Shown here: positions 1,899 to 52,121 of the stretch, piece after piece
How positions within the stretch are numbered: the stretch's first letter is position 1
How the letters are laid out: each line of letters begins with the position of its first letter
From: Bradyrhizobium sp. CER78
GTDB lineage: Bacteria; Pseudomonadota; Alphaproteobacteria; Rhizobiales; Xanthobacteraceae
Assembly (NCBI RefSeq): GCF_029846235.1
Contig: NZ_JARVWP010000006.1
Coordinates: forward strand, 62,001-126,000
Direction of reading: 5' to 3'
Length of the DNA: 64,000 nucleotides
Position numbers and translations under genes: made by a program
Notes under the pieces: generated by a model
Databases searched by the model: none
The model's input: the letters and a program-made list of their open reading frames with translations, nothing else
Told to the model about the DNA's origin: nothing

Positions 1899-4246
<2,348 letters not shown>

Positions 4247-4300
4247 TCTTCGTTCACCCCGGCGATCCGACCACAATGGTCAGATCGCAAGCCTCTGTTC

Positions 4301-4327
4301 GTCACGCCCGGCGGCGAGCCGGGCGAC
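4301..4327. repeat. Short GC-rich hairpin between atpA and atpG
   Basis: CGCCCGGC (4305-4312) and GCCGGGCG (4318-4325) pair across a 5-base loop in the atpA-atpG spacer, preceded by GTCA. It resembles one arm of the palindromic repeats elsewhere in the window. It may act as an mRNA processing or stability element, but that is inference. Confidence 0.4.
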
Positions 4328-4337
4328 GCCCCATTCG

Positions 4338-6427
<2,090 letters not shown>

Positions 6428-7057
6428 GAGCTCGCTCTTTTTTGCTGTCAAATTCGCAAGGGAAAAACCGTCGCCACCAAAGCAGCGCCTAGCGATCCAA
6501 GCCCTTGGAATTCAAGCGGGACTTCGATTTTCGACCGGCACAGGACATGCCGGGACCGTTAAAATCGCGGCTTTGCTAACATAGCAATCGCGCAGGTGCA
6601 ACATGACGGCATCGTGAGAGCCGCCTTGTCGCATGCGGTTTTTCGCGACCGCGGCCGCTGGTCGAATCAGAAAAATTCGGCGCGCGGAAATCCGATGCAG
6701 CCGGCTCCGAATCGCGTCCCTCGATTTTGTTCCATCGAAATTTGCATGGCCCTATGGGCTCGGCCGCAAGGAACCCGCAGCGGGCTGCCGTTTCATTTCG
6801 CGATTACTTACTGAAAACTTACAACCAGAAAGATAATCAGTATTCGTTAGTATTCGAATCGTTAAAAATTCGTTAACGGCCAAGGTTACGGAACCTCGAT
6901 TGAATACCCCAAAGCGGTAACAAGATATTTCAGCCCGAGACAATTGGGATTTACTGCCTAATTCGTGCCTCATTGCGAAACCAAACGGCCTTGGTCAACG
7001 AAGGGACGGGGGTTCCACTTGCCGTGTTAGCGGCAATACTGTCTGAGGGTCTTATCA
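6428..7057. other. 630-base intergenic region between divergent atpH and rlpA-like genes
   Basis: No convincing gene is seen. The left part (6430-6780) is GC-rich and must hold the atpHAGDC promoter. A short palindrome, GCTAACATAGC, lies near 6575. The right part (about 6785-6975) is strikingly AT-rich for this genome and carries the CtrA box described separately. Confidence 0.6.
6862..6877 (+). promoter_or_regulatory. Canonical CtrA-binding site upstream of the rlpA-like gene
   Basis: TTAA (6862-6865), seven bases, then TTAAC (6873-6877) exactly matches the alphaproteobacterial CtrA consensus TTAA-N7-TTAAC. It lies in an AT-rich block about 180 bases upstream of the rlpA-like start codon. 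CtrA is the master cell-cycle regulator in this class and often controls envelope and division genes, which fits an RlpA-family target. Binding itself is inferred. Confidence 0.6.
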
Positions 7058-7546
7058 ATGCTGAATATCAAGAAGGCGGCGGGCAACGTAACCCGCTCGC
7101 GTACGGCGCTTGCGTTTGTAGCCGCAACTATCCTGGTCGGGGGCAGCGTGACCGAGGCGTCCGCGAAGTCCAGGCACCATCATCACCGCCACCATCATCA
7201 CCAGGCCCGCGCCGAAGGTTCGTCCTGGCGCGATGCCAATGCATCGATCCAGCCGTCCGGCGGCCACTCGTTCTCGGGGATGGCCTCCTTCTACGGCAAT
7301 GAGTCGGGCAGCCGCACCGCTTCCGGTCAGCGCTTCAATCAGAACGCCATGACCGCTGCCCACCGCTCGCTGCCGTTTGGCACCAAGGTCCGCGTCACCC
7401 ATGGCGGCCGCAGCGTCGTCGTCACCATCAACGATCGTGGCCCGTTCGTCCGCGGCCGCGTGCTCGACCTCTCGACCGGCGCAGCCCGCGCCATCGGCCT
7501 GACCGGCGCCGGCGTCGGCCGCGTCACCGCCGAGGTCGTGTCCTAA
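7058..7546 (+). CDS. RlpA-like septal ring lytic transglycosylase (DPBB domain)
   Basis: 162 residues. Residues 1-37 look like a Sec signal peptide ([14 protein letters not shown]...ASA). A histidine-rich run ([10 protein letters not shown]) follows at about 39-48, then the double-psi beta-barrel domain at about 70-160 with [35 protein letters not shown] and GRVLDLS, the diagnostic RlpA set. RlpA proteins cleave peptidoglycan strands lacking stem peptides. No SPOR domain is present, which is common in alphaproteobacterial short forms. The gene stands alone, with its own CtrA box and terminator. The His run is unusual and could bind metal. Confidence 0.88.
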
Positions 7547-7602
7547 GCGTTCAGTAAGCGTTGCGTTGCGTAACGGCCGCGAGGCCTGCTTCGCGCCAAT
7601 AG

Positions 7603-7638
7603 GCCTGCCGTCGCGAATGACGGCAGGCATTTTCTTTT
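7603..7638 (+). terminator. Rho-independent terminator of the rlpA-like gene
   Basis: The stem GCCTGCCGTC (7603-7612) / GACGGCAGGC (7619-7628) is a perfect 10-bp stem with a 6-base loop, followed by ATTTTCTTTT. It lies 56 bases after the stop codon. Confidence 0.85.
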
Positions 7639-7721
7639 CGTCATTCCGGGGCGATGCGCAGCATCGAACCCGGAATCTCGAGATTCCGGGTCTGGTCCTT
7701 CCGGACCATCCCGGAATGACG
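7639..7721. repeat. Palindromic intergenic repeat (GTCATTCCGGGG type)
   Basis: The outer arms CGTCATTCCGGG and CCCGGAATGACG are inverted. Internal nested palindromes (CCCGGAATCTCGAGATTCCGGG; TGGTCCTTCCGGACCA) make a three-hairpin element. It ends four bases before the priA stop codon, in a convergent gene junction. This is a dispersed non-coding repeat type common in Bradyrhizobium. Confidence 0.7.
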
Positions 7722-7725
7722 GCCT

Positions 7726-9936
7726 CTACAAAAAGCTCTGCGGATCGACGTCGACCTCGAGTTTCAGATTGCCCGTGGTCTTCGGGCCCGCCTCGAGCCA
7801 TTCGCGCAGATATTGCGACAGGTCGACATTGCGCAGCGACTTCACCAGCAGGCGGAACCGGTAGCGGCCCTTGATGACCGCCAGCGGCGCCTCGGCGGGA
7901 CCGAGCACCTGGATCCGCTCATCGAGCGGCGCGACCGCGGCGAGCTTGCGGGCAAATCCTTCCGCGGTCGGGCGATCGCCGGCGGAGACGATCAGGCTCG
8001 CCAGCCGGCCGAACGGCGGATAACCGGTGCGCTCGCGGATATCGATCTCGCTGGCATAGAACGCCTCGCGGTCGTTCGCGATCAGGGCCTTAATGACCGG
8101 ATGCTCCGGCTGATGGGTCTGCAGATAGCCGACGCCGCGGCCCTGCTCGCGGCCGGCACGTCCGACCACCTGGTTCAACAGCTGGAACGTCCGCTCGGCG
8201 GCGCGGGGATCGCCGTTGCTGAGGCCGAGATCGGCGTCGATGACCCCGACCAGATTGAGCCGCGGGAAATTGTGCCCCTTGGCCACCAGCTGGGTGCCGA
8301 TGATGATGTCGACGCGGCCCTCGGCGATCTCGTTCAGCTCGCTGCGCATGGTCTCGATCGAGGTGATGAGATCGCTCGACAGCACCATAGTGCGGGATTC
8401 GGGAAAGATGCTCGCGGCCTCCTCCTGCAGGCGCTCGACGCCCGGGCCGACGGCGACCAGCGATTCCTCGGCCGCGCAATGCGGGCAGATGTTCGGGCGC
8501 GGCATCGAGAAACCGCAGTGATGACAGACCAGCCGCTGGCGGAAGCGATGATCGACCAGCCAGGCGTCGCAAATCGTGCAGGCGAAGCGATGGCCGCAGG
8601 CGCGGCACAGCGTCAGCGGCGCATAGCCGCGGCGGTTGAGGAACAGCAGCGCCTGCTCGCGGCGCTCGATCGCATGACGAATTTGCTCGGCCAGCACAGG
8701 CGAAATGAACCGCCCGCGCGGCGGCGGCGCGCGGCGCATGTCGATCGCCTCGATATGCGGCATGTGCTGGCCGCCGAACCGCGACGGCAGCGCGACGCGC
8801 TGGTAGCGTCCCTTGCGCGCATTGACCTCGCTCTCGACCGACGGCGTGGCCGACGCCAGCACGATCGGGATCTTGGCGATATGGGCGCGGACCACCGCCA
8901 TGTCGCGCGCGTGATAATGCGCGCCGTCGTCCTGCTTGTAGGCCTGGTCGTGCTCCTCATCGACGATGATCAGCCCGAGATCGGCATAGGGCAGGAACAG
9001 CGCCGAGCGGGCGCCGACCACGACCGGCGCCTTGCCCTCTGAGATCGCCGCCCAGTTGCGCGCCCGCGTGCGCGGCGTGAGCTCCGAATGCCATTCCAGC
9101 GGACGTACGCCGAAGCGCTGCGCGAAGCGGTCGAGGAACTGGCCGGTCAGCGCGATTTCCGGCATCAGGATCAGCGTCTGCTTACCGCGGCGGATATTCT
9201 CCGCGATCGCCTCGAAATAGACCTCGGTCTTGCCGGAACCGGTGACGCCGTCGAGCAGCGCGACATGAAAACTGCCGCTCGCCGCCAGCGTCCGCAGCAC
9301 GTCGACCGCACTGCGCTGCTCGCGCGAGAAATCCGGCTGGGCGTAGGAGGGGTCCGGAACGGGCGGCGCGGCCGGCGGCGGCATCGCCTCGACCGTCAGC
9401 GTGCCTTCGTCGACCAGGCCGTCGATTACGCCCGAGCTGACCCCGGCCTCCCGTGCCGCCTCCGACTTGCCGTGCAGCAAGCGGTCCGACAGCACCTCGA
9501 TCACCCGCCGGCGCGCCGGCGTCAGGCGCCGCGGCGGCTCGCCGATCAGGCGGACGCCGAGCCGCGTGCGCTCCGGCCCGAGATTCTCGCCCATCCGCAG
9601 CGTCATCCGCAGCACCATGCCGCGCGCCGACAACGTGTAGGTGGAGACCCAGTCGACCAGCTGGCGCAGCTCCGCCCGGAGCGGCGGAACGTCGAGCTTC
9701 TCGCTGACGTCCTTGAGCCGGTTGTGCAGCCGCGGATCCGGCCTGGCATTCTCGGCCCACACCACCGCGACGACTTCGCGCGGCCCGAGCGGAACAGAGA
9801 TCACATCGCCGGGCGCAAGGTCCATGCCGCGCGGCACACGGTAGGAATAAGTCTGGTTCAGCGCCACAGGCACCAGCACGTCGACGACACGTGTCGTCGA
9901 TGCGGCGGCTGGGCTGGGGCGCGTGGTGTGATCCAT
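7726..9936 (-). CDS. priA: Primosomal replication restart helicase PriA
   Basis: 736 residues from ATG 9936 (MDHTTRPSPAAASTTRVVD). It restarts stalled forks by unwinding DNA and loading the replicative helicase. The N-terminal DNA-binding domain (ALNQTYSYRVP) is followed by a superfamily 2 helicase core with Walker A GVTGSGKT near 230-237 and a DEEH box (VDEEHDQAYKQDD). The paired zinc-binding cysteine motifs run CRACGHRFACTICD to CHHCG and CPHC. The C-terminal helicase domain has IIGTQLVAKGHNFP. A frame extension upstream of 9936 runs into a perfect hairpin and is unlikely to be coding. It is divergent from xerC. Confidence 0.97.
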   Translation of the reverse strand: MDHTTRPSPAAASTTRVVDVLVPVALNQTYSYRVPRGMDLAPGDVISVPLGPREVVAVVWAENARPDPRLHNRLKDVSEKLDVPPLRAELRQLVDWVSTYTLSARGMVLRMTLRMGENLGPERTRLGVRLIGEPPRRLTPARRRVIEVLSDRLLHGKSEAAREAGVSSGVIDGLVDEGTLTVEAMPPPAAPPVPDPSYAQPDFSREQRSAVDVLRTLAASGSFHVALLDGVTGSGKTEVYFEAIAENIRRGKQTLILMPEIALTGQFLDRFAQRFGVRPLEWHSELTPRTRARNWAAISEGKAPVVVGARSALFLPYADLGLIIVDEEHDQAYKQDDGAHYHARDMAVVRAHIAKIPIVLASATPSVESEVNARKGRYQRVALPSRFGGQHMPHIEAIDMRRAPPPRGRFISPVLAEQIRHAIERREQALLFLNRRGYAPLTLCRACGHRFACTICDAWLVDHRFRQRLVCHHCGFSMPRPNICPHCAAEESLVAVGPGVERLQEEAASIFPESRTMVLSSDLITSIETMRSELNEIAEGRVDIIIGTQLVAKGHNFPRLNLVGVIDADLGLSNGDPRAAERTFQLLNQVVGRAGREQGRGVGYLQTHQPEHPVIKALIANDREAFYASEIDIRERTGYPPFGRLASLIVSAGDRPTAEGFARKLAAVAPLDERIQVLGPAEAPLAVIKGRYRFRLLVKSLRNVDLSQYLREWLEAGPKTTGNLKLEVDVDPQSFL

Positions 9937-9971
9937 TGAATCAGGGCTTTTGAATCCGAACTTTGCACCGG

Positions 9972-10014
9972 GCTGGAGATTTGGTTCTGAATGAATCAGA
10001 ACCAAATCTCCAGC
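9972..10014. repeat. Perfect 19-bp inverted repeat in the priA-xerC divergent region
   Basis: Arm 9972-9990 (GCTGGAGATTTGGTTCTGA) is exactly complementary to 9996-10014 across a 5-base loop (ATGAA). It lies 36 bases upstream of the priA ATG, in the region between divergent genes. There is no T run on either side, so it is not a simple terminator. It could be a regulatory hairpin in the priA leader or a mobile palindromic repeat copy. Confidence 0.8.
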
Positions 10015-10159
10015 TTCTTGTTTTGACGCGTTTTCTTCACGCGAACCGGCCTCCACTTCGCTCGAAAACGCTCTGTCACCGCTGCGCGGTCTTAGCGATC
10101 GGTAAACGAAGGCAGTGCGATATAATCAGGAGATTAGCAGCGCCAATAGCCCTTTGCAG

Positions 10160-11131
10160 ATGGCCCGGACCGATCAACCCATCCCACCGCTCGAGCTCGA
10201 CTGCGCCGACACATCAGTCACGCAGGAGATGATGCGCTGGCTGTCGCATCTGCGCGCCGAGCGGCGGCTGTCGCCGAAGACGCTCGAGGCCTACGCCCGC
10301 GACGTGCGGCAATGCCTGGCCTTCCTCGCTGAACACTGGGGCGCACGCGTGACGCTTGCGGCCTTCTCCGCGCTCGAGGCGAGTGATGTCAGGGCGTTCA
10401 TGGCGATGCGGCGCGCAGACGAGATCGGCGGACGGTCGCTGATGCGGGCGCTGGCGGGGCTGCGCTCGTTCGGACGCTTCCTGGAACGCGAAGGCAAGGG
10501 CAAGGTCGGCGCACTCTCGGCGATTCGCGCGCCCAAGGTGGCAAAGAGCCTGCCGAAGCCGATCCATATGGAGGCGGCGAAACGCTTTGCCGATGCCGAT
10601 GAGCGTGCCGGCGAGGAGCGCGAGATCTGGATCCTGGTGCGCGACGCCGCCGTGATGGCGCTGCTCTACGGCTCGGGCCTGCGCATCTCCGAGGCACTGG
10701 GGCTGAAGCGCCGCGACGTGCCGAAGCCGGGCGAAGGCGACGTGCTGGTCGTGACCGGCAAAGGCAACAAAACCCGCATGGTGCCGGTGCTGCAGAACGT
10801 ACTGCAATTGATCGAGGACTATGCGGCGATCTGCCCGCACCAGCTCAGCCCCACGGGTCCGATGTTCGTCGGTGCGCGCGGCGGCCCCTTAAGCCCCCGC
10901 ATCATCCAGCTCACCATGGAGCGGCTGCGCGGCGCGCTCGGCCTGCCCGACAGCGCGACGCCGCATGCGTTGCGGCACTCCTTCGCCACCCACCTGCTGA
11001 GCCGCGGCGGCGACCTGCGCGCGATCCAGGAATTGCTCGGCCACGCGTCGCTGTCGACCACGCAGATCTACACCGGCATCGACAGCGAGCGCCTGCTCGA
11101 GGTCTACCGCTCCGCGCACCCGCGCGGCTGA
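10160..11131 (+). CDS. xerC: Tyrosine site-specific recombinase XerC
   Basis: 323 residues from ATG 10160 ([15 protein letters not shown]). It resolves chromosome dimers at dif together with XerD. The N-terminal SAM-like core-binding domain ([19 protein letters not shown]) precedes the catalytic domain with R175 ([10 protein letters not shown]), K201 (GKGNKTR), H269-x-x-R272 ([12 protein letters not shown]), H295 ([12 protein letters not shown]) and nucleophile Y304. The set is complete, so it is probably active. XerC rather than XerD is chosen from the [15 protein letters not shown] ending and the position next to priA, as in other alphaproteobacteria. Confidence 0.9.
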
Positions 11132-11276
11132 ATGGCCGGATCCCGGTCCAGATAGGACGCCGGATCTGGCTCGCCGTCATGCTGCGTTCATCTTCATACG
11201 GCTAACCACAAACTGCCGCCCCTTGCCTTGTGCACCGCATTCGGCAATCGTGGCACAGTCTCATCGGAGGGGAATC

Positions 11277-11867
11277 ATGAGCGCACATGAAAGTATGGAG
11301 CAGGCGGAGCATGCCGAGCATGCGTCGGGCGAGAACAAAAAGATCGCGCTCCTGATCGCCGTGATCGCGCTCTGTCTGGCGCTGTCGGAAACGCTCGGCA
11401 AGGGCGCCCAGACCGAATCGATCAGCAAGAACGTCGAAGCCTCCAACCTCTGGGCCTTCTTCCAGGCCAAGAGCATCCGCCGCACCGCGGTGCAGACCGC
11501 CGCCGAGCAGGGCAAGCTGAACCTCGCGACCACCACCGACGAGGCGGCCAAGGCCGCGCTGCAGAAGCAGATCGACGACTGGCAGAAGACCGCGGCGCGC
11601 TATCGCTCGGAGCCGGAGACCGGCGAGGGCACCGAACAGCTCGCCGAGCGCGCCAAACACGCCGAGCATGAGCGCGACGAGGCCACTGCGAAATATCACC
11701 ACTTCGAGCTTGCCTCCGCCGCCTTCCAGATCGCCATCGTGCTGGCGTCCGCGACCATCATCACCGGTATTGCCGCGCTCGTCTGGGTGTCCGGCCTGGT
11801 GACACTGGCCGGCATCGTGATGACCGTGCTCGGCCTATTCCAGCCGCACTTGCTGCCTCTGCATTGA
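11277..11867 (+). CDS. DUF4337 family membrane protein
   Basis: 196 residues from ATG 11277, placed after GGAGGGGAATC, a good ribosome-binding site. It has an acidic, His/Glu-rich N-terminus (MSAHESMEQAEHAEHA) and a first membrane segment near 24-41 (IALLIAVIALCLALSETL). A charged helical middle follows (WAFFQAKSIRRTAVQTAAEQ, with Glu/Lys/Ala-rich coiled coil), then two C-terminal membrane segments (AFQIAIVLASATIITGIAAL; SGLVTLAGIVMTVLGLF). This matches the DUF4337 pattern, whose function is unknown. It is a single gene, 145 bases after xerC. Confidence 0.75.
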   Translation: MSAHESMEQAEHAEHASGENKKIALLIAVIALCLALSETLGKGAQTESISKNVEASNLWAFFQAKSIRRTAVQTAAEQGKLNLATTTDEAAKAALQKQIDDWQKTAARYRSEPETGEGTEQLAERAKHAEHERDEATAKYHHFELASAAFQIAIVLASATIITGIAALVWVSGLVTLAGIVMTVLGLFQPHLLPLH

Positions 11868-11894
11868 GGCGGCAGGCTGGCGCCTTGCTATCCC

Positions 11895-12026
11895 CGTCAT
11901 CCTGAGGTGCGAGCGGAGCGAGCCTCGAAGGATGCACGGCCACAGTGGTGGCCGTCGACCCTTCGAGACGCGCGCCATGCGCGCTCCTCCAGCGACAAAG
12001 GCATCGCCTTTGCGCGGGGGTGACGG
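11895..12026. repeat. Dispersed palindromic repeat (GTCATCCTGAGGTGC type)
   Basis: The outer ends GTCATCCTGAGG and GCGGGGGTGACGG flank nested inverted repeats: GGTGCGAGCGGAGCGAGCCTCGAAGG against CCTTCGAGACGCGCGCCATG; GGCCACAGTGGTGGCC; and AAAGGCATCGCCTTT. It lies between converging genes and ends 14 bases before the stop of the 12041-12580 gene. It is non-coding. Confidence 0.65.
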
Positions 12027-12040
12027 AGCAGGAGCGCCGC

Positions 12041-12580
12041 CTAGAGAACCTTGCTGGTCTGATGCACGCTTTTGCGGAAGCGAGCGATCAGGCGCAGCGT
12101 GCGCGCGGCCCAGCCCTCGCCGTCGCCGCTGATCATCTCGCGGATGCGCCGCTTGATCGGCTCGACCAGCGCGGTGGCCTTGGCCCGCAGCGCCATCACG
12201 TAATTATAGAGCGCCTCGAACCAGGGCATCTCCAGCAGCTTCGATCGCGTCACGTCGAACAGGAAGGCCGTGACGCCGACGCCGAGGAATTTGGCGAACA
12301 GGATCAGCGAGACTGCGCTGAACCAATATTGGTTCGCCAGCAGCCAGAGCCCGACCAGCTTGAGCGGAAACAGCGGGATCAGCGGCACGACGAAGACGAT
12401 CAGCGTCATCGCCGGCGACAGCGAATCGACCCGGTCGGCAAGCCATTGCTTGAGCGCACGGAGCGGGATCCAGGCGACCACCCGGGCCACGATCGGCTCG
12501 AGGTGGTCCCACAGCCAGGCCTCGATCAGGAAGATGATCGCAAGCAGGACCCAGAACGGCTGAAGCAGGCGGCGCAACAT
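12041..12580 (-). CDS. Hypothetical integral membrane protein
   Basis: 179 residues; no named function recognised. Membrane segments are visible near 7-24 (QPFWVLLAIIFLIEAWLW), 55-80 (SPAMTLIVFVVPLIPLFPLK) and 82-105 (LWLLANQYWFSAVSLILF). The C-terminal third is basic and amphipathic (KRRIREMISGDGEGWAARTL). It lies downstream of lpdA on the same strand, with a repeat in between. It ends at a dispersed repeat, which suggests an independent single-gene unit. Confidence 0.65.
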   Translation of the reverse strand: MLRRLLQPFWVLLAIIFLIEAWLWDHLEPIVARVVAWIPLRALKQWLADRVDSLSPAMTLIVFVVPLIPLFPLKLVGLWLLANQYWFSAVSLILFAKFLGVGVTAFLFDVTRSKLLEMPWFEALYNYVMALRAKATALVEPIKRRIREMISGDGEGWAARTLRLIARFRKSVHQTSKVL

Positions 12581-12591
12581 CGGTATGATCC

Positions 12592-12690
12592 TAAAGCGCG
12601 ATGAGACCGAGTTGAATCATCACGCTTCAGCTCCTTGTTCGAGTATGATCTTCTCGGAAAACCGCTTCACACTTTTCCGGATCATGCTCC
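12592..12690. repeat. Dispersed repeat family A, copy 1 (downstream of lpdA)
   Basis: Two modules are seen. 12592-12630 is an AAAGCGCGATGAGACC... ...CATCACGCTT inverted pair. 12634-12690 runs GTTCGAGTATGATC, TCGGAAAACCGCTTCACACTTTTCCGGATCATGCTCC, giving a hairpin of GGAAAA/TTTTCC and GATC/GATC arms. Related copies lie at 20593-20644, 32798-32877 and 39311-39435. Confidence 0.75.
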
Positions 12691-12718
12691 AGCCCGGCTC
12701 GCGCCGGACGTTCGATCA

Positions 12719-14119
12719 TCACATATGGATGGCGCGCTTGGCTACCGCAAGCGCAGCTTCCTTGATCGCCTCGGAGCGGGTCGGATGTGCGTGGCAGGTG
12801 CGGGCCAGATCCTCGGCCGAGCCGCCGAATTCCATCAGCACGCAGGCTTCGTGGATCATTTCGCCGGCCTCGATGCCGACAATGTGGACGCCGAGCACCC
12901 GGTCCGTCTTCGCATCTGCGAGAACCTTCACGAAGCCGTCAGTGGTCTGATTGACCTTGGAGCGGCCATTCGCGGTGAACGGGAATTTGCCGACGGTATA
13001 CGCGACACCCGCCTGCTTGAGGTCTTCCTCGGTCTTGCCGACCGACGATACTTCCGGCGTGGTATACACAACACCTGGAATGACGTCGTAGTTCACGTGG
13101 CCGGCCTGGCCCGCGATGATCTCCGCGCAGGCAACGCCCTCGTCTTCCGCCTTGTGCGCGAGCATCGGCCCGGCGACGACGTCGCCGATCGCGTAGATGC
13201 CCTTCACATTGGTCGAGAAGTGCGCGTCGATCTCGACGCGGCCGCGATTGTCGAGCGCAACGCCGGCCTCCTTCAGCCCGAGGCCCTCGGTGTAGGGCAC
13301 GCGGCCGATGCACACGAGCACGACGTCGGCCTCGATGGTCTCCGCAGCACCGCCTGCGGCCGGCTCAACCTTGGCCTGCAGCGTCTTGCCCGAGGTGTCA
13401 ACCGCAGTGACCTTGGTGCCGAGCTTGAAGACAAAGCCCTGCTTCTCCAGCATGCGCTGGAATTGTTTTGCCACTTCGCCGTCCATGCCAGGCAGGATGC
13501 GGTCGAGGAATTCCACGACCATGACATCCGCCCCGAGGCGGCGCCAGACCGAGCCGAGTTCGAGCCCGATCACGCCGGCGCCGATGATCAGCAGTTTCTC
13601 CGGCACCTTCTCCAGCGACAGCGCGCCGGTCGACGACACGATACGCTTCTCGTCGATATCGATGCCCTTCAGGCGTGCGATGTCGGAGCCGGTGGCGATC
13701 ACGATGTTCTTGGTCTCGACGGTTTCGGACTTGCCGTCACCGGAGACCTCGACCTTGCCGGCACCGAGGATCTTGCCGGTGCCCTTGAGCACGTCGATCT
13801 TGTTCTTCTTCATCAGGAACTCGACGCCCTTGACGTTGCCGTCGATGCCCTGCTGCTTGAAGTTCATCATCGCGGGCAGATCGAGCTTCGGCGCCGGGAC
13901 GCTGACGCCCATCTTGGCGAAGGAGTGCCCGGCTTCCTCGAACATCTCGGAGGCGTGCAGCAGCGCCTTCGACGGCATGCAGCCGACATTGAGGCAGGTG
14001 CCGCCCAGCGTCGCATTCTTCTCGACGACGGCGACCTTCATGCCGAGTTGCGCCGCGCGGATCGCGCAGACATATCCGCCCGGGCCGGTGCCGATGACGA
14101 CGAGATCGTAAGAAGCCAT
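12719..14119 (-). CDS. lpdA: Dihydrolipoyl dehydrogenase (E3)
   Basis: 466 residues. This FAD enzyme reoxidises dihydrolipoyl groups with NAD+ in 2-oxo acid dehydrogenase complexes. The FAD-binding GTGPGG is at 10-15. The redox disulfide is C42/C47 ([13 protein letters not shown]). The NAD site is [17 protein letters not shown], and the catalytic His-Glu dyad is H445/E450 (HAHPTRSE). It ends the sucA-sucB-SDR-lpdA run, so it most likely serves the 2-oxoglutarate dehydrogenase complex. Confidence 0.97.
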
Positions 14120-14203: not shown

Positions 14204-14965
14204 TTAGCGACCGCCCGACACGTCGAGGATCGCGCTGGTGACGTAGGACGCCTCGTCCGAGATCAGCCAGACGATGGCGTTGGCGATTTCATCCGCGGTG
14301 CCGACGCGCTTCATCGGCACCATATGGGCGAGCCGATGCGCGCGATCGGGCTCACCGCCCGCGGCATGGATGTCGGTGTCGATCAAGCCGGGCCGGATGC
14401 CGGCGACGCGGATGCCTTCATTCGCGACCTCGTAGCCGAGGCCGACCGTGAAGGAATCGATTGCGCCCTTGGAGGCGGCATAGTCGACATAGGTGTTGGG
14501 CGCGCCGAGCTTCGCCGCGACCGAGGACAGGTTGACGATGACGCCGCCCTTGCCGCCGTGCTTGGTCGACATCCGCTTCACCGCCTCGCGCGCGCACAGG
14601 ATACTGCCAGTGACGTTCACCGCCATCATCTGCTGGATGCGCTCGGCGGACATCTCGTCGACGCGCACACCGCTCTTGCCGACGATGCCGGCATTGTTGA
14701 CGAGCGCACCGAGCGTACCGAAGCCATCCGCAGCCTTGAACAGCGCCAGGATGTCGGCCTCGCTGCCGACGTCGCACTTCACCGCGATCGCCTTGCCGTT
14801 CCTGGCCTCGATCGCGGCGACGACTTCATTGGCCGCACCCTGGTTGGATGCGTAGCCGACGACGACGCGATAGCCGCGCGCGGCAGCTGCAAGCGCGGTG
14901 GCGCGGCCAATGCCGCGGCTGCCGCCGGTGATGACAACGACCTTGTCCGTCACATTGATCCCCAA
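14204..14965 (-). CDS. SDR family NAD(P)-dependent oxidoreductase
   Basis: 253 residues of classical short-chain dehydrogenase. The cofactor motif TGGSRGIG is at 13-20, NNAG at 90-93, the active-site serine at 147-148 (NLSSVA), and Y162/K166 in YAASK. It resembles FabG-type reductases, but the substrate cannot be read from sequence. It sits between sucB and lpdA with short spacers on both sides, so it is probably co-transcribed with the 2-oxoglutarate dehydrogenase genes. Confidence 0.88.
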   Translation of the reverse strand: MGINVTDKVVVITGGSRGIGRATALAAAARGYRVVVGYASNQGAANEVVAAIEARNGKAIAVKCDVGSEADILALFKAADGFGTLGALVNNAGIVGKSGVRVDEMSAERIQQMMAVNVTGSILCAREAVKRMSTKHGGKGGVIVNLSSVAAKLGAPNTYVDYAASKGAIDSFTVGLGYEVANEGIRVAGIRPGLIDTDIHAAGGEPDRAHRLAHMVPMKRVGTADEIANAIVWLISDEASYVTSAILDVSGGR

Positions 14966-15025
14966 AGGTAAGCACCCAACGAATCGCGGCGCCCGATCCG
15001 ATCGGACGCCGCGCGCGATATGACC

Positions 15026-16276
15026 TTAGAGGTCCAGCACCAGGCGGGCCGGATCCTCCAGGCTCTCCTTGACGCGCACCAGGAAGGTGACCGCTTCCTT
15101 GCCGTCGATGACGCGGTGATCGTAGGACAGCGCCAGATACATCATCGGGCGCACCTCGATCTTGCCGCCGACCACCATCGGCCGCTCCTGGATCTTGTGC
15201 ATGCCGAGGATGCCGGACTGCGGCGCGTTGAGGATCGGCGTCGACATCAGCGAGCCGTAGATGCCGCCATTGGTGATTGTGAAGGTGCCGCCCTGCATCT
15301 CGTCGATCTTGAGCTGGCCGTCGCGGGCACGCCGGCCGTAGTCGGCGATCGACTTCTCGATCTCGGCAATCGACTTGTGATCGCAGTCGCGCACGACGGG
15401 CACCACCAGGCCGCGGTCGGTGCCGACCGCGACGCCGATGTGGTAGTAGTTCTTGTAGATCAGGTCAGAGCCGTCGATCTCGGCGTTGACGGCCGGAATG
15501 TCCTTCAGCCCCTGCACCACCGCCTTGGTGAAGAAGCCCATGAAGCCGAGCTTCGAGCCGTGCTTCTTCTCGAACGTGTCCTTGTAGAGGGCGCGCAGCT
15601 TCATCACCTCGGTCATGTCGACCTCGTTGAAGGTCGTCAGCATCGCGGCGGTGTTCTGCACATCCTTGAGGCGGCGCGCGATGGTCTGGCGCAGCCGGGT
15701 CATCTTGACGCGCTCCTCGCGCGCGGCGTCGTCCGCCGGCGACGGCGCACGGACCTGAACGGCGGCGGCCGGCTGGTTGACCGGGGTCGGCGCCGAGGCG
15801 GCCTTCTCGATCGCGGCCAGCATGTCGCCCTTGGTGACGCGGCCGTCCTTGCCCGAGCCCGGAACGGTCGAGGCGTCGACGCCGCTTTCGGCGGAGAGCT
15901 TGCGCACCGACGGCGCGAGCGGCGCATCCGCCGGCGGCACCTTGGGTGCGGCAGGCGCCGCTGCGGGAGCGGCGGCAGGCGCCGGCGCTGCGGCCTTGGC
16001 GGGAGCTGCGGCTGCGGCAGCGGGCTTGGCCGCTGCGACGGCACCGTCATTGATCTGGCCGAGCAGCGCGCCGACGGCAACGGTCTCGCCATCCTTGGCG
16101 ATGATCTCGCCGAGCGTGCCGGCGACCGGCGCGGGCACCTCGATGGTGACCTTGTCGGTTTCCAGCTCCACCAACGGCTCGTCCACCGCAACGGCCTCAC
16201 CGGCCTTCTTGAACCAGCGGCCGATCGTGGCCTCGGTTACGGATTCGCCGAGCGTTGGAACGCGAATTTCAGTCAT
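15026..16276 (-). CDS. sucB: 2-oxoglutarate dehydrogenase E2 (dihydrolipoyl succinyltransferase)
   Basis: 416 residues. It transfers the succinyl group to CoA. The lipoyl domain spans 1-77 with attachment lysine K42 (ETDKVTIEV). An Ala/Pro-rich flexible linker follows at about 80-110, then the peripheral subunit-binding domain ([20 protein letters not shown]) and the catalytic domain with H387 and D391 (SYDHRVIDG). All key residues are present. It is the second gene after sucA, 172 bases downstream. Confidence 0.97.
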
Positions 16277-46764: not shown

Positions 46765-47475
46765 ATGAACCGTATCAACACGCTCCGCGCGGCCCTGGTC
46801 GCGCTGCTCCCTTTGGCCGCGATCGCATTGGCAAGCCCGGCGCCTGCCCAGTCGCCATCCGCCTCGCCCGCTCCCGCGGCAAGCCCGAGCCCGACCCCCG
46901 CCCCGACCCCGGCGGCAACGCCCGTGCCCCCGCCGGCCGAGACCAAGTCGCCGGCTGACAGCCCCGCCGCGTCGCAGTCTCCGACACCACCGCCGGCCGC
47001 CCCGGTGCAGACCGCCGACCCGTTCGGCGAGCCGTTCACGCTGGAGCCGAAGAAGGTCGTGATGCTGAAGGGCACGGCCAATTGGGATTCCGCCTTCGAC
47101 GCGCTGATCGAGGCGTTCAAGCAGCTCACCGCCCTGCTCGACAAGGACGGCATCAAGGCATCGGGCAACCCGATGATCGTCTACACCTCGACCGACGACA
47201 CCGGCTTCACCTTCATCGCCGAAATCCCGGTCGATCAGGATGCGAAGAACCTCGGCAAGAACATGAGCATGGGCAATTCGCCCGACGGCAAGGCGCTGAA
47301 GTTCGTCCACCGCGGTTCCTACGACAACATGGACAACACCTATGAGGCGATCACCAATCACCTCGACGACAAGAAGCTCGAAGCAAAGGACACCTTCATC
47401 GAGGAATACATCACCGATCCGCTGAAGACCGCCGAAGACAAGCTTGTGATCAACGTCTACGTACCCCTGAAGTGA
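46765..47475 (+). CDS. Secreted protein with GyrI-like domain
   Basis: 236 residues from ATG 46765 (MNRINTLRAALVALLPLAAI), after GGAAGGGGATGGAGAAG. A signal peptide spans 1-28 (ending ASPAPAQ). A long Pro/Ala/Ser linker covers about 29-88. The C-terminal domain, about 95-236, has the GyrI/AraC-effector pattern: VMLKGTANWDSAFDALIEAF, NPMIVYTSTDD, FVHRGSYDNMDNTYEAITNH and EEYITDP. GyrI-like domains bind small ligands and are usually cytoplasmic, so an exported version is unusual. It overlaps the next gene by four bases. Confidence 0.75.
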   Translation: MNRINTLRAALVALLPLAAIALASPAPAQSPSASPAPAASPSPTPAPTPAATPVPPPAETKSPADSPAASQSPTPPPAAPVQTADPFGEPFTLEPKKVVMLKGTANWDSAFDALIEAFKQLTALLDKDGIKASGNPMIVYTSTDDTGFTFIAEIPVDQDAKNLGKNMSMGNSPDGKALKFVHRGSYDNMDNTYEAITNHLDDKKLEAKDTFIEEYITDPLKTAEDKLVINVYVPLK

Positions 47476-48194
47476 GCCAGATGACCCGCCGACTCCCGTT
47501 CGCCGCCGCCCTCCTCACAACCACCCTGCTCGCTGCACCCGCAATGGCCGATTCCGACTTCCCGCCGGCGATCTCGGTCACCGGCGAGGCCACCGTATCG
47601 GCGGCGCCGGACCAGGCGCAGCTCGACGCAGGTGTCACGACCGACGGCAAGACCGCACGCGAGGCCACCGAAGCCAACAATGTGACGATGGGCAAGGTGC
47701 TCGCGGCGCTGAAGGGCGCCGGCATCGCGGAGAAGGATTATCAGACGTCGCGGCTGTCGCTGCAGCCGCAATTCGCCAACCGTCCGCCGTCATCGCCGAG
47801 CGCGCCGCCCAGCATCGTCGGTTACCATGCGAGCAACCGCGTCACGATCAAGCTGCACGACGTGAGCAAGGTCGCCGGCGTCATCGACGTGCTGGTGGGC
47901 GCCGGCGCCAACGATATCGGCGGCCTCAATTTCTCGGTGTCGCAGGCCTCGAAACTGCTCGACGACGCTCGCGAAAAGGCTGTCGCCGACGCACGCCGCA
48001 AGGCGGAGATCTACGCCAAGGCCGCCGGCGTCACGCTCGGCGCGCCGTTGAACATTTCGGAAGTCGGCTCGGCGCCCTTGGCGATCGGGGGCAAGATGGC
48101 AAGGTTCGCCGCGGCCCCAACGCCGATAGCCCAAGGTGAGGAAACGCTGACGGTGAATGTCAGCGTGTCCTGGGCGATCAAGCCGGCGCAATAA
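47472..48194 (+). CDS. SIMPL (DUF541) domain periplasmic protein
   Basis: 240 residues from GTG 47472, or from ATG 47481. A signal peptide covers about 4-27 (LPFAAALLTTTLLAAPAMA). The SIMPL fold spans the rest: ISVTGEATVSAAPDQAQLDA, VTIKLHDVSKVAGVIDVLVG and ARRKAEIYAKAAGVTLG. SIMPL proteins form periplasmic oligomers of mostly unknown role. GTG overlaps the upstream stop (GTGA), so the two exported proteins are probably co-translated and may work together. Confidence 0.88.
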   Translation: MSQMTRRLPFAAALLTTTLLAAPAMADSDFPPAISVTGEATVSAAPDQAQLDAGVTTDGKTAREATEANNVTMGKVLAALKGAGIAEKDYQTSRLSLQPQFANRPPSSPSAPPSIVGYHASNRVTIKLHDVSKVAGVIDVLVGAGANDIGGLNFSVSQASKLLDDAREKAVADARRKAEIYAKAAGVTLGAPLNISEVGSAPLAIGGKMARFAAAPTPIAQGEETLTVNVSVSWAIKPAQ

Positions 48195-48207
48195 GGGCTT
48201 GATTCAA

Positions 48208-48247
48208 CGAAATGTTCATGATATGTTCCAAGCATTTCGAATTTTTG
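48208..48247 (+). terminator. Probable terminator after the SIMPL gene
   Basis: CGAAATGTT (48208-48216) pairs with AGCATTTCG (48231-48239), 9 bp with one G-U, followed by AATTTTT. It marks the boundary between the exported-protein pair and the low-GC cassette. Confidence 0.55.
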
Positions 48248-48323
48248 CACGGTCAAGTCGTTAATGATTTCTGTGCAACCCTTGAAAATTATGATTCGTT
48301 AGGATTCGAGGGAGGTGATTCTT

Positions 48324-48773
48324 ATGAATGATATCGCGACGACTGTCCCCTTCCTTTCCACAACCCAGCTTGGTGAACTCGCGCTCGACGCCGCCTTGGA
48401 GGCTGACGACGTAATCAATCGGCGAGGAACGCAGCTAGACCTAGTTCGAAAGCTCCTCGCGGCACTGCGAAATACGCTAGCGACAGGAGCCGGCGGGGTG
48501 AACCCTGCAAAGATAGATCTCACGTATCTTCCGATTTACGAGTCTGCGTTAGGAATCGCTGCCGACGGAAGACCTGAGCGCGTTGTCGAATTTACAGAGC
48601 AGGTTGCAATGATTCTGTCCCAATTCTTTGATGCGGATGCTGACCAGAATAGTGACCTGCTTCCAAAGATACGAGACTTCTGTCTAGCGGTTCACGATGA
48701 AACGCTATCGCAACGTCTGGATGTAGTTCAGAGCGCGCAACAAACAGCTAAGCATGTCAATCGAGTTAATTAG
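48324..48773 (+). CDS. Cassette gene 1: small protein of unknown function
   Basis: 149 residues from ATG 48324, preceded by a near-perfect GGAGGTGA ribosome-binding site at 48311-48318. It is predicted all-helical and acidic (LGELALDAALEADDVINRRG; VVEFTEQVAMILSQFFDADA). No membrane segment, signal peptide or known domain was recognised. A/T-ending codons are far more common than in flanking genes, pointing to horizontal origin. Its last 20 bases overlap gene 2, so the two are co-translated. It could be an adaptor, sensor or partner of the metalloprotease-like protein, but nothing in the sequence shows which. Confidence 0.7.
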   Translation: MNDIATTVPFLSTTQLGELALDAALEADDVINRRGTQLDLVRKLLAALRNTLATGAGGVNPAKIDLTYLPIYESALGIAADGRPERVVEFTEQVAMILSQFFDADADQNSDLLPKIRDFCLAVHDETLSQRLDVVQSAQQTAKHVNRVN

Positions 48774-49992
48774 TCCGCTTGCGAATACTAGAAGCAAGCT
48801 TGCCGGGATCATTGCCCAGATCGAAGTAGTGTCCGGCTCCGAGTATCCGTATCAGGATAGCCGAACCGCCGTCAACGAACTCCGGTCGCTAATTGATCGT
48901 ATGATGCGACGATTGGATGGCTTCGAACTTTATCCACCCAATGTACAAAAATCGCTTCTTCGACAGGGCAATTACCTCATAGTTATCGTCACAGAGCTTC
49001 TCGGTTTTATTGTAAGATCTACCAGCACCCGCAATCTCTTCGAACTCTATTACCCCTTCAAAGAAATATCGAAGAAGTTCGTTGGCGAGAACGTCAGACT
49101 CATCCTTTCATCAGATTGGCAGTACTCTCCGTTCACATATCCGTACGGATTAGACGAACTCCCGACCTTCATTCTGATTGGCCTTCCTGCTTCCGAATCC
49201 GAAAACGCGCTCGTCTTCCCGACGGCCGGACACGAGTTAGGGCACAATAGATGGCGCGCAAACGAGTACGGGAAGGCACTTGCACCTGATCTAGAGGAGT
49301 CGGTGTATGAAGCCTACGAAGCGAACCGAGCTGAATTTGAACGTGTGTTTACCCTCAAGGGAGCGGACATACGAAACGACATGTTCGTTCAACCGATCAT
49401 TCGACAGAGCGTAAATCTGTCACTGAGGCAATCGGAAGAGCTGTATTGCGACTTCACTGGACTCAGCCTTTTTGGAAAGTCGTACCTGTTCGCTTTCGAT
49501 TATCTAATCGCACCAGGCCTATCTAGCCATCGCGATTCGAAGTATCCGAGCCTAGAAACCCGCGTATCTCTCCTATCTAAGTATGCGGGCGAGCTTGGCT
49601 TTCAGGTGAACGGATTTGCCGAGCGCTTCAACGCCGAGAAGTTGGCCGGTGCAGAAGCATCTAACTTTATGGTGCTGATGGCTGATCGAGCCGTCGAGAG
49701 CATTACTGAGCGCCTCTTTCAAATGGCGCACTCGCACGTGGCATCGACAGTCGGAAATCCGTTTTCATCGGAGAGTGAGGCTCATGCGCTTCAATGCTTC
49801 ACCAATGGTGTTCCTTCGGAAAGGGTACATACCTTAGGCGATCTGATGAATGCCGCTTGGTCTGTATTTAACGGACCAGACCTGAATCAGCTTAACAACA
49901 AAGGTCAAAGCAAGACTCAGTTTCTAACGGACTTGGTTGTGAAGTCTGCCGAGAACCTTGAATACTTGAGTTATCGTGATGCTAAACACTGA
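48754..49992 (+). CDS. Cassette gene 2: HELGH zinc metalloprotease-like protein
   Basis: 412 residues from ATG 48754, which lies inside the end of gene 1. A gluzincin-type motif, HELGH, is at 160-164 (FPTAGHELGHNRW). A likely third zinc ligand is E229 within EELYCDFTG (226-236 region), followed by YPSLETRVSLL near 264-274, which recalls the HPxxxxR segment seen after the third ligand in several metallopeptidases. The N-terminal 150 residues are helical and unique. No signal peptide or membrane anchor is seen, so it is probably cytoplasmic. Low GC and foreign codon use match genes 1 and 3. The protease call rests on motif order alone; the substrate is unknown. Confidence 0.7.
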   Translation: MSIELISPLANTRSKLAGIIAQIEVVSGSEYPYQDSRTAVNELRSLIDRMMRRLDGFELYPPNVQKSLLRQGNYLIVIVTELLGFIVRSTSTRNLFELYYPFKEISKKFVGENVRLILSSDWQYSPFTYPYGLDELPTFILIGLPASESENALVFPTAGHELGHNRWRANEYGKALAPDLEESVYEAYEANRAEFERVFTLKGADIRNDMFVQPIIRQSVNLSLRQSEELYCDFTGLSLFGKSYLFAFDYLIAPGLSSHRDSKYPSLETRVSLLSKYAGELGFQVNGFAERFNAEKLAGAEASNFMVLMADRAVESITERLFQMAHSHVASTVGNPFSSESEAHALQCFTNGVPSERVHTLGDLMNAAWSVFNGPDLNQLNNKGQSKTQFLTDLVVKSAENLEYLSYRDAKH

Positions 49993-50632
49993 CGAAGTTA
50001 AAAGGCGCCTTCATCGCTTTGATGGTACACAAAGCGATGGCATCGTTATCGTTCCCAATCCTTTTGAACACGATGCGACACAAATCGGTCGAACATCTAT
50101 AGATTTGCGCCTCGGTCGCTGGTTCTCGATGCTTCAGCAAACCAAGACAAGCGCCATCGACTTCGGCGTCCCGCGCAACGAGAACGCGTTCAGTGCATCG
50201 GAAGGGCGATCTTCATTCGTGCCGTTCGGCCATCCATTTGTTCTCCATCCTGGGCGGTTTGTCCTCGCATCAACTTTCGAATGGCTATCTCTTCCTAACG
50301 ATGTAGCCGCCTATATTTCAGGGAAATCGGCCCTTGGGCGGATGGGGCTGATAATTGAAACAGCTGCCGGCATACACCCGGGATTCTCCGGCAGCATCAC
50401 GCTTGAGCTTTTCAATTGCGGAGAGGTCCCGATACGCATCTATCCCGGCATGCCTGTATGTCAGCTATTTTTCCACCAAGTGGATGGAGCCGTCTCCAAA
50501 GAGAACTCTGCTAAAGGGACCAAATTCGGCGGACGAAGGAAGCCTGCATTTGGCAGTTACAAGCCAGATGACGCGTTGTCGTCGATGCTAGACGTCGCAG
50601 CCATCGATCAGGATCTGTTTCGCCGATCTTGA
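49979..50632 (+). CDS. Cassette gene 3: dCTP deaminase / dUTPase family protein
   Basis: 217 residues from ATG 49979; a GTG one codon upstream is also possible. The Dcd fold is clear: RTSIDLRLG near 38-46, then S117 and R121 (GKSALGRMGL), the GIHPGFSG turn and E143 (ITLELFN), followed by PIRIYPGMPVCQL. These residues correspond in type and spacing to Ser111, Arg115 and Glu138 of E. coli dCTP deaminase, so deaminase activity is likely. The C-terminus extends past the core. It overlaps gene 2 by 14 bases. This is not the housekeeping dcd context. Stand-alone dCTP deaminases are known anti-phage enzymes that deplete dCTP. Confidence 0.8.
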   Translation: MLNTDEVKRRLHRFDGTQSDGIVIVPNPFEHDATQIGRTSIDLRLGRWFSMLQQTKTSAIDFGVPRNENAFSASEGRSSFVPFGHPFVLHPGRFVLASTFEWLSLPNDVAAYISGKSALGRMGLIIETAAGIHPGFSGSITLELFNCGEVPIRIYPGMPVCQLFFHQVDGAVSKENSAKGTKFGGRRKPAFGSYKPDDALSSMLDVAAIDQDLFRRS

Positions 50633-50719
50633 TACTCGACAATTAGCGAACCCATCGACGACGACCGACGTCGCAAGTTTTGATCTATTTAGTTCGCGAT
50701 GCAACTGCATCTGAAGTTG

Positions 50720-51784
50720 CTAAATCTCGAACACCTGTCCCGGCTTCAACGCGACGAACTTCTCGCGCGGCACTTTTGCCGCGTCGAGCGCTTCGCCGAG
50801 CGCTGTCGCCGGTGCGTCGATCGCTTCGTCGGTCAATTGGAACGTGCCGTGGTGATGCGCCAACGCCTGGGCGGCACCGCAATCAGCCAGCGCCTTCACC
50901 GCATCCTCCGGGTTCATGTGCTGGTCCTGCATGAACCAGCGCGGCTCGTAGGCGCCGATCGGCAGGATCGCGAGCCTTAAGGGTCCATGCGCCTCGGCGA
51001 CCCGGCGGAAATGCCGCCCGTCGCCGTAGCCGGAATCGCAGACGATGTAGAGCTTGCCGGCCGGCGTCTCCAGCACGAAGCTCGCCCATAGCGCCTTGTT
51101 GCGATCGAACAGGCCGCGCGCCGACCAGTGCCGGGTCGGCACCAGGGTCACTGCAAGACTGCCGCCGAGCTCGACACGCTGATGCCAGTCGAACGCCTCG
51201 GCCTTGATCGCGGCATCGGACGCCCGCATCGTCACATCATTGCCGAGCGGCGTTATCACGCGAGGGCCGAACGCGGCGTTCAGCTTCGACAGCGTCGCGA
51301 CGTCGAGATGGTCGTAATGGCCGTGCGACACCAGCACGACATCGATCTTTGGCAGCTTGTCGAACGCAATGCCGGGATCATTGTGCCGCTTCGGCCCAGC
51401 GAAGCTGAACGGCGAGGCGCGCATCGACCAGACCGGATCGACAAGAATATTGAGGCCCGCGGTCTGGATCAGCCAGCTGGCATGGCCGACGAAACAGAAC
51501 CGCACCTTGTCGCCCTCGACGCGCGGCGGCGGCGTATCGGCATGGGGGCTCGGCGCCCATTCCGGCCAGACCGCACGCTTCCGGCCGCCCCCGAACTGCC
51601 AGCGCAGCACCTCGCCGAGCGATTTCGGCGGCGAGCCATCGGGGTCGAAGAAGTGCAGGCCGTCGAAATGATCGGAGGCGGGGCCGTCATAGGTTTTCAT
51701 ATAAGTCATCCAGATCGAGGGCACGCCGATCGCAGCGGCGGCTCCGGTCAAGGTTGCGAGAACGCGGCGGCGGGTGATGGGCAA
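50720..51784 (-). CDS. MBL-fold metallo-hydrolase with Tat signal
   Basis: 354 residues. The N-terminus has a twin-arginine signal (ITRRRVLATLTGAAAAIG). The metallo-beta-lactamase motif is H154-G-H-Y-D-H159-L-D (SHGHYDHLD), and HASWLIQTAGLNILVDPVWS precedes it. The layout and length fit the UlaG/NAPE-PLD-like group of binuclear zinc hydrolases, and the exported substrate is unknown. It is transcribed toward the low-GC cassette and ends 87 bases after it. Confidence 0.88.
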   Translation of the reverse strand: MPITRRRVLATLTGAAAAIGVPSIWMTYMKTYDGPASDHFDGLHFFDPDGSPPKSLGEVLRWQFGGGRKRAVWPEWAPSPHADTPPPRVEGDKVRFCFVGHASWLIQTAGLNILVDPVWSMRASPFSFAGPKRHNDPGIAFDKLPKIDVVLVSHGHYDHLDVATLSKLNAAFGPRVITPLGNDVTMRASDAAIKAEAFDWHQRVELGGSLAVTLVPTRHWSARGLFDRNKALWASFVLETPAGKLYIVCDSGYGDGRHFRRVAEAHGPLRLAILPIGAYEPRWFMQDQHMNPEDAVKALADCGAAQALAHHHGTFQLTDEAIDAPATALGEALDAAKVPREKFVALKPGQVFEI

Positions 51785-52121
51785 GCGGGTTCCCGAATAG
51801 GAGGCAGGCTCCGTTTAATAGGAGGCAGGCTCCGTTTATATGGGTGGCACCGGCGAATTCGACATCAACGGAGCAAAACGACGTAATTTCAACATCTTAA
51901 GGTCAAACCCAGACCGGCTGCGGCGAAACTTTCCTTGACTTTGCCGCCCCGGCAGCGTTTAACGCCGCGGCTTTCTCGGAAAGCTTCGTCTTTTCGACCC
52001 GCCGACTGGTCCTGGAGGCCAGAGGCCAACGCCCGACAGCGCGATGCGCCCTCGGGCGCGAAAGTGTTTGGACCATCGTCTTGGCACACCGTCTTGGCAC
52101 GGTGCCGAGACAAACTATCTG
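51785..52121. other. Intergenic region between MBL gene and ffh, left part
   Basis: It contains a short tandem duplication (AGGAGGCAGGCTCCGTTTA repeated at about 51800-51838), just upstream of the MBL gene start. A 58-codon basic ORF can be read on the minus strand at about 51903-52079, but it has no ribosome-binding site and no recognised family. Otherwise no feature was found. Confidence 0.4.

Follow-up and report, generated by a model that had tools for sequence, protein, structure and literature searches.

Here we describe a low-GC (guanine–cytosine) cassette of three overlapping open reading frames (ORFs) in Bradyrhizobium sp. CER78, within a stretch of 64,000 nucleotides (positions 62,001 to 126,000 of contig NZ_JARVWP010000006.1, forward strand) that we refer to as the window. 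The cassette encodes a small helical protein, a predicted gluzincin-type metallopeptidase (zincin) and a Dcd-family enzyme that is predicted to deaminate dCTP. It is inserted at a site at which the compared relatives lack it, and the same trio recurs in fixed order in distant bacteria. We give about an even chance to the reading of the cassette as a mobile module for immunity or stress, with a Dcd effector that is gated by the zincin and the small protein.

The inserted segment is approximately 2.54 kilobases (kb) in length (48183–50719, no strand assigned) and its only plus-strand ORFs of at least 100 amino acids are the three cassette genes. All three lie on the plus strand: gene 1 (48324–48773; 149 amino acids) encodes the small protein, gene 2 (48754–49992; 412 amino acids) the predicted peptidase and gene 3 (49979–50632 from its ATG) the Dcd-family protein, which has 217 amino acids from the ATG at 49979, or 218 if the GTG at 49976 is the start. 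The ORF list and the sequence bear out the three ORFs of a first-pass annotation of this DNA, with their positions and overlaps of 20 bases (genes 1 and 2) and 14 bases (genes 2 and 3), as well as the near-perfect ribosome-binding site that it placed ahead of them (GGGAGGTGAT, 48310–48319, plus strand). The unusual composition that it described is also evident: the cassette genes have a GC content of 49–52% and a third-position GC content (GC3) of 0.50–0.54, compared with a GC3 of 0.83–0.90 in six nearby genes, and the minimum GC over 2.3-kb stretches of the window (100-base steps) starts at 48201. The terminator that it had placed upstream of gene 1 was not recovered by a scan of the plus strand; by eye, an A/T-rich inverted repeat (CGAAATG at 48208–48214 and CATTTCG at 48233–48239) followed by a T-run is present there.

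The right-hand neighbour gene is found in 60 of 60 genus genomes (own genome included), and 29 of the 59 relatives with this gene were fetched and compared by blastn with window positions 46901–51900. In 28 of the 29, the left match stops at 48182–48196 and the right match starts at 50719–50727, with 15 to around 780 bases between the two flank matches at the empty site; for the remaining relative (L052), only the right flank matched. The cassette is a clean insertion, missing from the compared relatives at the window site. The intergenic DNA printed for four relatives (L044 1320–1530, L045 1230–1450, L050 1260–1470 and L051 1330–1530) has a GC-rich palindrome resembling repetitive extragenic palindromic (REP) elements at the empty site, where the window has the cassette.

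Gene 3 is a strongly supported member of the Dcd/dUTPase superfamily, with predicted dCTP deaminase activity. It passes the curated cut-off of TIGR02274 (E 7.4e-41; 139.8 bits, cut-off 92.8) and a PDB sequence search matched it to 2qxx (3.7e-28), which strongly upholds the family originally assigned. Its Pfam matches are PF22769, PF00692 and PF06559 only; the zinc-binding deaminase domain PF00383 is not among them, and no PADLOC family matched at E values up to 1. The deaminase residues that had been singled out, S118, R122 and E144 in the 218-residue numbering (S117, R121 and E143 from the ATG), are invariant in all 29 aligned rows, and we take them to be the counterparts of the catalytic serine, arginine and glutamate of Escherichia coli Dcd (S111, R115 and E138). 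Other Dcd/Dut-family matches, below the family cut-off, are located elsewhere in the same genome (at C29 and at C36:437319), and judged by these matches the cassette Dcd is an extra copy. An argument from the position that precedes the PGF motif, which is occupied by His or Gln in all 29 rows, was dropped, as His is found there in other Dcds of these genomes too.

Gene 2 has the motifs H160ELGH164, E229xxxD233, P265-x4-R270 and W369. The proposed metal site, HELGH at 160–164 with E229 as third ligand, withstood alignment: none of the 30 aligned rows of the main form of the trio (type A, below), window included, departs from H160, E161, H164, E229, D233 or R270. HExxH with a downstream ExxxD, which defines gluzincins, is found in all 30 type A rows, in 6 of 6 rows of a second form (type B) and in the single row of a third (type C), and HELGH, ExxxD and P-x4-R are common to eight rows of the three subtypes; one type A row has HEIGH. 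In the structural model (predicted local distance difference test (pLDDT) score, 91.4), HELGH lies within helix 152–169 and ExxxD within helix 213–240. The motif pattern is that of a gluzincin, and we predict a peptidase. Gluzincins of the M48 kind combine HExxH, ExxxD and a C-terminal HPxxxxR. Gene 2 resembles them in HELGH, ExxxD and, as an apparent likeness, P-x4-R, and differs in that it matches no Pfam peptidase profile and has no significant fold match. None of the 30 type A zincins matched the Pfam-A peptidase profiles, including M48, at E values up to 0.1, and gene 2 itself fell into none of the Pfam, PADLOC, PHROGs or NCBIfam families. Its model had no Foldseek match at E ≤ 0.001, and the VIA-align rows cover mainly residues 3–143. 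Foldseek, VIA-align and BFVD gave no clear known fold for the zincin, which does not show that the fold is new.

Gene 1 evolves fast. Its relatives are 13–24% identical to it, and F119-C120 is nearly invariant among them. The AlphaFold2 model (mean pLDDT, 85.8) has five helices and no significant fold match in Foldseek, VIA-align or BFVD, which again does not show that the fold is new. No Pfam, NCBIfam, PHROGs or PADLOC family scored above cut-off, and neither gene 1 nor gene 2 has a name in any family library searched. PDB sequence searches with four profiles (A4, A5, A7 and A12) gave nothing useful.

A search with the zincin alignment yielded 31 type A loci from genome contigs and four from viral contigs, to which ten Rhizobium plasmids and the loci from genome searches were added. 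After removal of duplicates (L001 is the window; L003, L008, L009 and L013 repeat L002; L006 equals L012 and L007 equals L016) and of L005 (G283), a spurious partial match (E 8e-4), 35 distinct type A loci remained. L125 and L126 were likewise rejected as spurious zincin loci, as their ORFs were read by eye as polysaccharide deacetylases. Conserved association of the three genes, named beforehand as a check on the proposal, proved stronger than had been claimed. The small protein was found by profile in 33 of the 35 loci (L037 has an ORF in its place and the contig of L040 starts too late) and the Dcd in 31, in L026 only in part at a contig end; of the loci without Dcd, L010, L028 and L029 run off the contig end and L042 has a shortened zincin. 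The order small protein, zincin, Dcd and the strand are identical throughout. Zincin and Dcd genes overlap in 22 of 26 measured loci and are at most 6 bases apart in the other four. A conserved mobile unit, packed or overlapping like a co-translated operon, is well supported. Pairwise distances between the proteins are correlated (zincin–Dcd, 0.77, n = 26; zincin–small protein, 0.70, n = 29; small protein–Dcd, 0.70, n = 28), with 0 of 2,000 permutations as high in each case, which fits joint movement of the three genes.

By record titles and tree labels, type A carriers span about nine phyla and include Alpha- and Gammaproteobacteria, Myxococcota, Desulfobacterales, Planctomycetota, Verrucomicrobiota, Kiritimatiellota, Armatimonadota, Hydrogenedentota and Parcubacteria. 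Counting the own genome each time, there were 6 raw matches in 265 genus genomes (type A twice, type C and a relic once each, and two spurious), 3 raw matches in 289 class genomes (one spurious), 3 in 149 relatives and 1 in 398 phylum genomes, the own genome, with few candidates scored per genome. The trio is patchy rather than core, so that core synteny, which had been named as grounds for discarding the proposal, is not what genus, class and phylum genomes display. A single-sequence genome scan and a search of phage records with type A and type B zincins gave nothing useful.

Type B was first met in a Rhizobium genome (G436) that also has a type A trio, as an additional Dcd gene that follows a distant zincin. 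Homology between the two types holds both for the zincins (hhalign E 2e-14) and for the Dcds (5.6e-30); every type B row has HExxH with ExxxD (6 of 6), and every row aligned for the deaminase retains its residues (5 of 5). Type B is also found on a Bradyrhizobium plasmid and on a viral contig (L120); a search of 337 class genomes with its zincin, run without a positive control, was empty. In E. coli, type B is present in 8 of 5,426 genomes, on plasmids only (P1-like phage-plasmids). The flanks of one such locus (L109) match phage D6 at 94–96%; in the interval, L109 carries the trio plus two more small genes in the place taken in D6 by orf80 and a simB-like superimmunity gene. Near-identical type B zincins are present on Salmonella plasmids, of which only two, both fragmented, were opened. 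Type C is a third form, from an 89%-complete assembly (G304). The relic (G1026; L128:7639–8499) consists of a zincin N terminus fused in frame to a Dcd, and neither the metal site nor the small gene was found.

In a Dcd tree with long branches, type A rows fall on one side of a branch with support 90/86 and type B rows form another branch (100/100), both separate from the eight canonical Dcds of carrier genomes that were included. Gene 3 resembles the superfamily (TIGR02274, PF22769) in profile membership and retained catalytic residues, and type A cassette Dcds differ from canonical ones in their separate branch and their accompanying zincin. The row nearest to the window is a viral-contig copy (L039), whereas L016, from an 80%-complete assembly of the same genus (G323), groups with Caulobacterales, which is suggestive of more than one acquisition of the trio by the genus.

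Type B trios are linked to defence genes in several relatives. In four Rhizobiaceae loci (L101, L112, L117 and L118, the last three on plasmids), the type B trio follows multiubiquitin, E1/JAB or ThiF, and DUF6527 genes, and divergent helix-turn-helix (HTH) and ImmA/IrrE (CapH/CapP-like) genes accompany this bacterial ubiquitin-like (Bub) operon and the trio; Bub genes were called by Pfam for L101 and by annotation for the others. In Emticicia, a type B trio is located between HsdR and HsdS/methylase genes of a type I restriction locus. For type A, L025, L032 and L033 have HTH, M78/capP-like and 110-amino-acid genes directly upstream and a divergent Bub operon (capP model in L025, 5.3e-15). 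Type I and III restriction genes, S8 peptidases and TIR proteins adjoin other type A trios, as do many housekeeping genes, and some relatives have Fic, HigA–RelE or VapC genes nearby. A patchy, mobile distribution with defence neighbours is, on these gene assignments, strong for type B and moderate for type A. The expectation of defence neighbours was therefore borne out among relatives, by restriction–modification, Bub and CapH/CapP-like genes and the P1-like superimmunity locus; it failed at the window itself, where no defence gene was recognised alongside (flanking genes were named by eye and flanking ORFs were not family-scanned). The defence interpretation is plausible, and its support comes more from relatives than from the window.

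Several of these neighbourhoods have features of their own. L101 brings together HTH and ImmA/IrrE genes, a Bub operon and a trio of type B (9037–13693 and 14697–16104), and an adjoining ORF (2717–7645) has caspase, nSTAND and WD40 domains. On a plasmid of Rhizobium sp. CIAT894 (L118:1–10961), a single run of genes comprises an anti-phage dCTP deaminase, ImmA/IrrE and HTH genes, a Bub operon, the trio and an AbiEii-like AAA ATPase. On a Rhizobium plasmid (L002:12028–20284), the trio is followed by an S8 peptidase, a trypsin-like peptidase and a large AAA ATPase in a row, perhaps a separate protease-based system. Six loci from Alphaproteobacteria (L016:7980–8312, L024:8166–8507, L025:8110–8460, L032:8138–8476, L033:8112–8459 and L019:8012–8503) have a gene for a protein of around 110 amino acids immediately upstream of the trio; the two tested had no Pfam family.

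A gated nucleotide effector is the simplest reading of an extra Dcd that has intact catalytic residues and is packed together with a metallopeptidase, likewise intact, and a helical protein that evolves fast. We infer activity, gating and phage protection as follows. The three proteins would form a complex in which, in the resting cell, the small protein keeps the deaminase inactive. Either the small protein, which evolves fast, or the zincin would sense infection or DNA damage, and the zincin would then cleave a partner, most likely the small protein, freeing the Dcd trimer. The deaminase would turn dCTP into dUTP, so that DNA synthesis is starved of dCTP and uracil is loaded into replicating DNA, and phage or plasmid replication would stop.

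A number of observations weigh against this proposal. No similarity was detected between type A and type B small proteins, so a common role for them rests on position and size, and Foldseek, VIA-align and BFVD gave no fold match that would confirm the protease. The relic retains a Dcd fused to a zincin N terminus that has no metal site. Many of the type A carriers behind the count of phyla are metagenome-assembled genomes, for which single phylum assignments may be wrong, and the distance correlations ignore host phylogeny. PADLOC models match none of the three cassette genes nor the tested type B genes. Housekeeping genes surround many type A loci, and defence genes are only modestly enriched beside type A: the 112 nearest type A neighbours matched 99 PADLOC families, and the best 25 of these include two with 2 members each, type III methylase and capP, as well as the type I R and S subunits with 1 member each; 106 control neighbours of dut/dcd genes matched 27, of which 20 of the best 25 are ThiF-like E1–E2 models and the rest IetA, mad2 and PDC-M51B; the number of distinct members cannot be read from these tallies, and the control took three genes per side against two for type A.

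The wiring could also run in reverse. The Dcd trimer would then be a sensor that reads the nucleotide pool (dCTP, dTTP, or phage-hypermodified or depleted dCTP) and frees the zincin to kill or arrest the cell by cleaving host or phage proteins. Both catalytic sets are invariant and either could be the output; PMC4827122 describes cooperative regulation of dCTP deaminases by dTTP, and CapP, in part of PMC13373217, provides a case of a peptidase at work in immune loci. We nonetheless regard this arrangement as unlikely, given that the invariance of S118, R122 and E144 exceeds the obvious need of nucleotide binding alone and that the relic kept the Dcd and not the zincin core. Similarly little probability attaches to a toxin–antitoxin or addiction module, in which Dcd would act as a toxin by depleting dCTP, the zincin would set the turnover of the small protein as its labile antitoxin, and any phage protection would be secondary. 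The compact operon, its carriage by plasmids and phage-plasmids, its single insertion at the window site and the Fic, HigA–RelE or VapC genes near some relatives' trios would all suit such a module; three genes in fixed order with a 412-amino-acid peptidase are unlike the common pairs, and type B linkage to Bub, CapH/CapP-like and restriction loci favours immunity, although the boundary between the two is thin.

We consider it quite improbable that the trio serves nucleotide-pool housekeeping or aids DNA-damage repair, with an accessory Dcd feeding dUMP and dTTP synthesis under stress alongside a chaperone-like small protein and a regulatory protease. Dcd is a normal enzyme of the dTTP pathway, and the CapH/CapP-like regulators that are present in some loci respond to DNA damage; against this, the host has other Dcd/Dut-family matches and the distribution is patchy (4 matches kept in 265 genus genomes and 1 in 398 phylum genomes). 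A core nucleotide-metabolism operon was rejected on the same two grounds. Low-GC insertions can bring in unrelated genes, so that an accessory Dcd might be paired by chance with an unrelated protease as ordinary genomic baggage; we give this almost no credence, as the same order recurs in 31 of 35 loci, across about nine phyla, and in two further divergent subtypes.

A bolder extension of the gated-effector reading, which we offer only tentatively, is that the trio belongs to an undescribed and widespread immune module of at least three subtypes, in which a gluzincin gates a Dcd-fold enzyme. It might also be the terminal output of some Bub operons, coupling conjugation or DNA-damage signalling to collapse of the dCTP pool, or be wired the other way, with the Dcd sensing and the protease unleashed. 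If true, this would be protease-gated nucleotide-depletion immunity built on a housekeeping enzyme fold, from Alphaproteobacteria to Planctomycetota, and the E. coli phage-plasmid version makes the trio directly testable in a laboratory host.

None of the papers listed in searches of the open PMC literature describes the gene set, although mention in the Bub-operon papers Gong 2025 and Ye 2026 is possible. The word 'deaminase' is absent from the main text of a Prok-Ub paper (PMC1779556), and the portions of PMC9674854 and PMC12724379 that mention dCTP deaminase and ThiF do so in separate, unrelated passages. Among known systems, Bub operons with CapH/CapP regulators are alike in that type B trios follow Bub genes and type A faces a Bub operon in three loci; part of PMC13373217 presents CapP as a protease activated by single-stranded DNA that cleaves CapH, a repressor of immune operons. 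The window cassette differs, as no Bub operon was recognised by eye nearby and a PF14452 profile search of its own genome, run without a positive control, was empty. Anti-phage nucleotide depletion, as described in passages of PMC11084316, has an outcome that resembles the one proposed for the trio, and anti-phage dCTP deaminases share with it the predicted reaction and its result, loss of dCTP. The first-pass annotation had drawn the analogy to stand-alone enzymes of this kind, which is not supported at the level of the proteins themselves. The anti-phage dCTP deaminase annotated in Rhizobium sp. CIAT894, which adjoins the Bub-linked type B trio of that plasmid, is of the PF00383 zinc type (its gene is cut at the locus edge), whereas gene 3 has the Dcd fold (Dcd/dUTPase superfamily, PF22769) and two partner genes. 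Because the annotated anti-phage enzyme has this different, zinc-type fold, the trio would be a new arrangement of nucleotide depletion.

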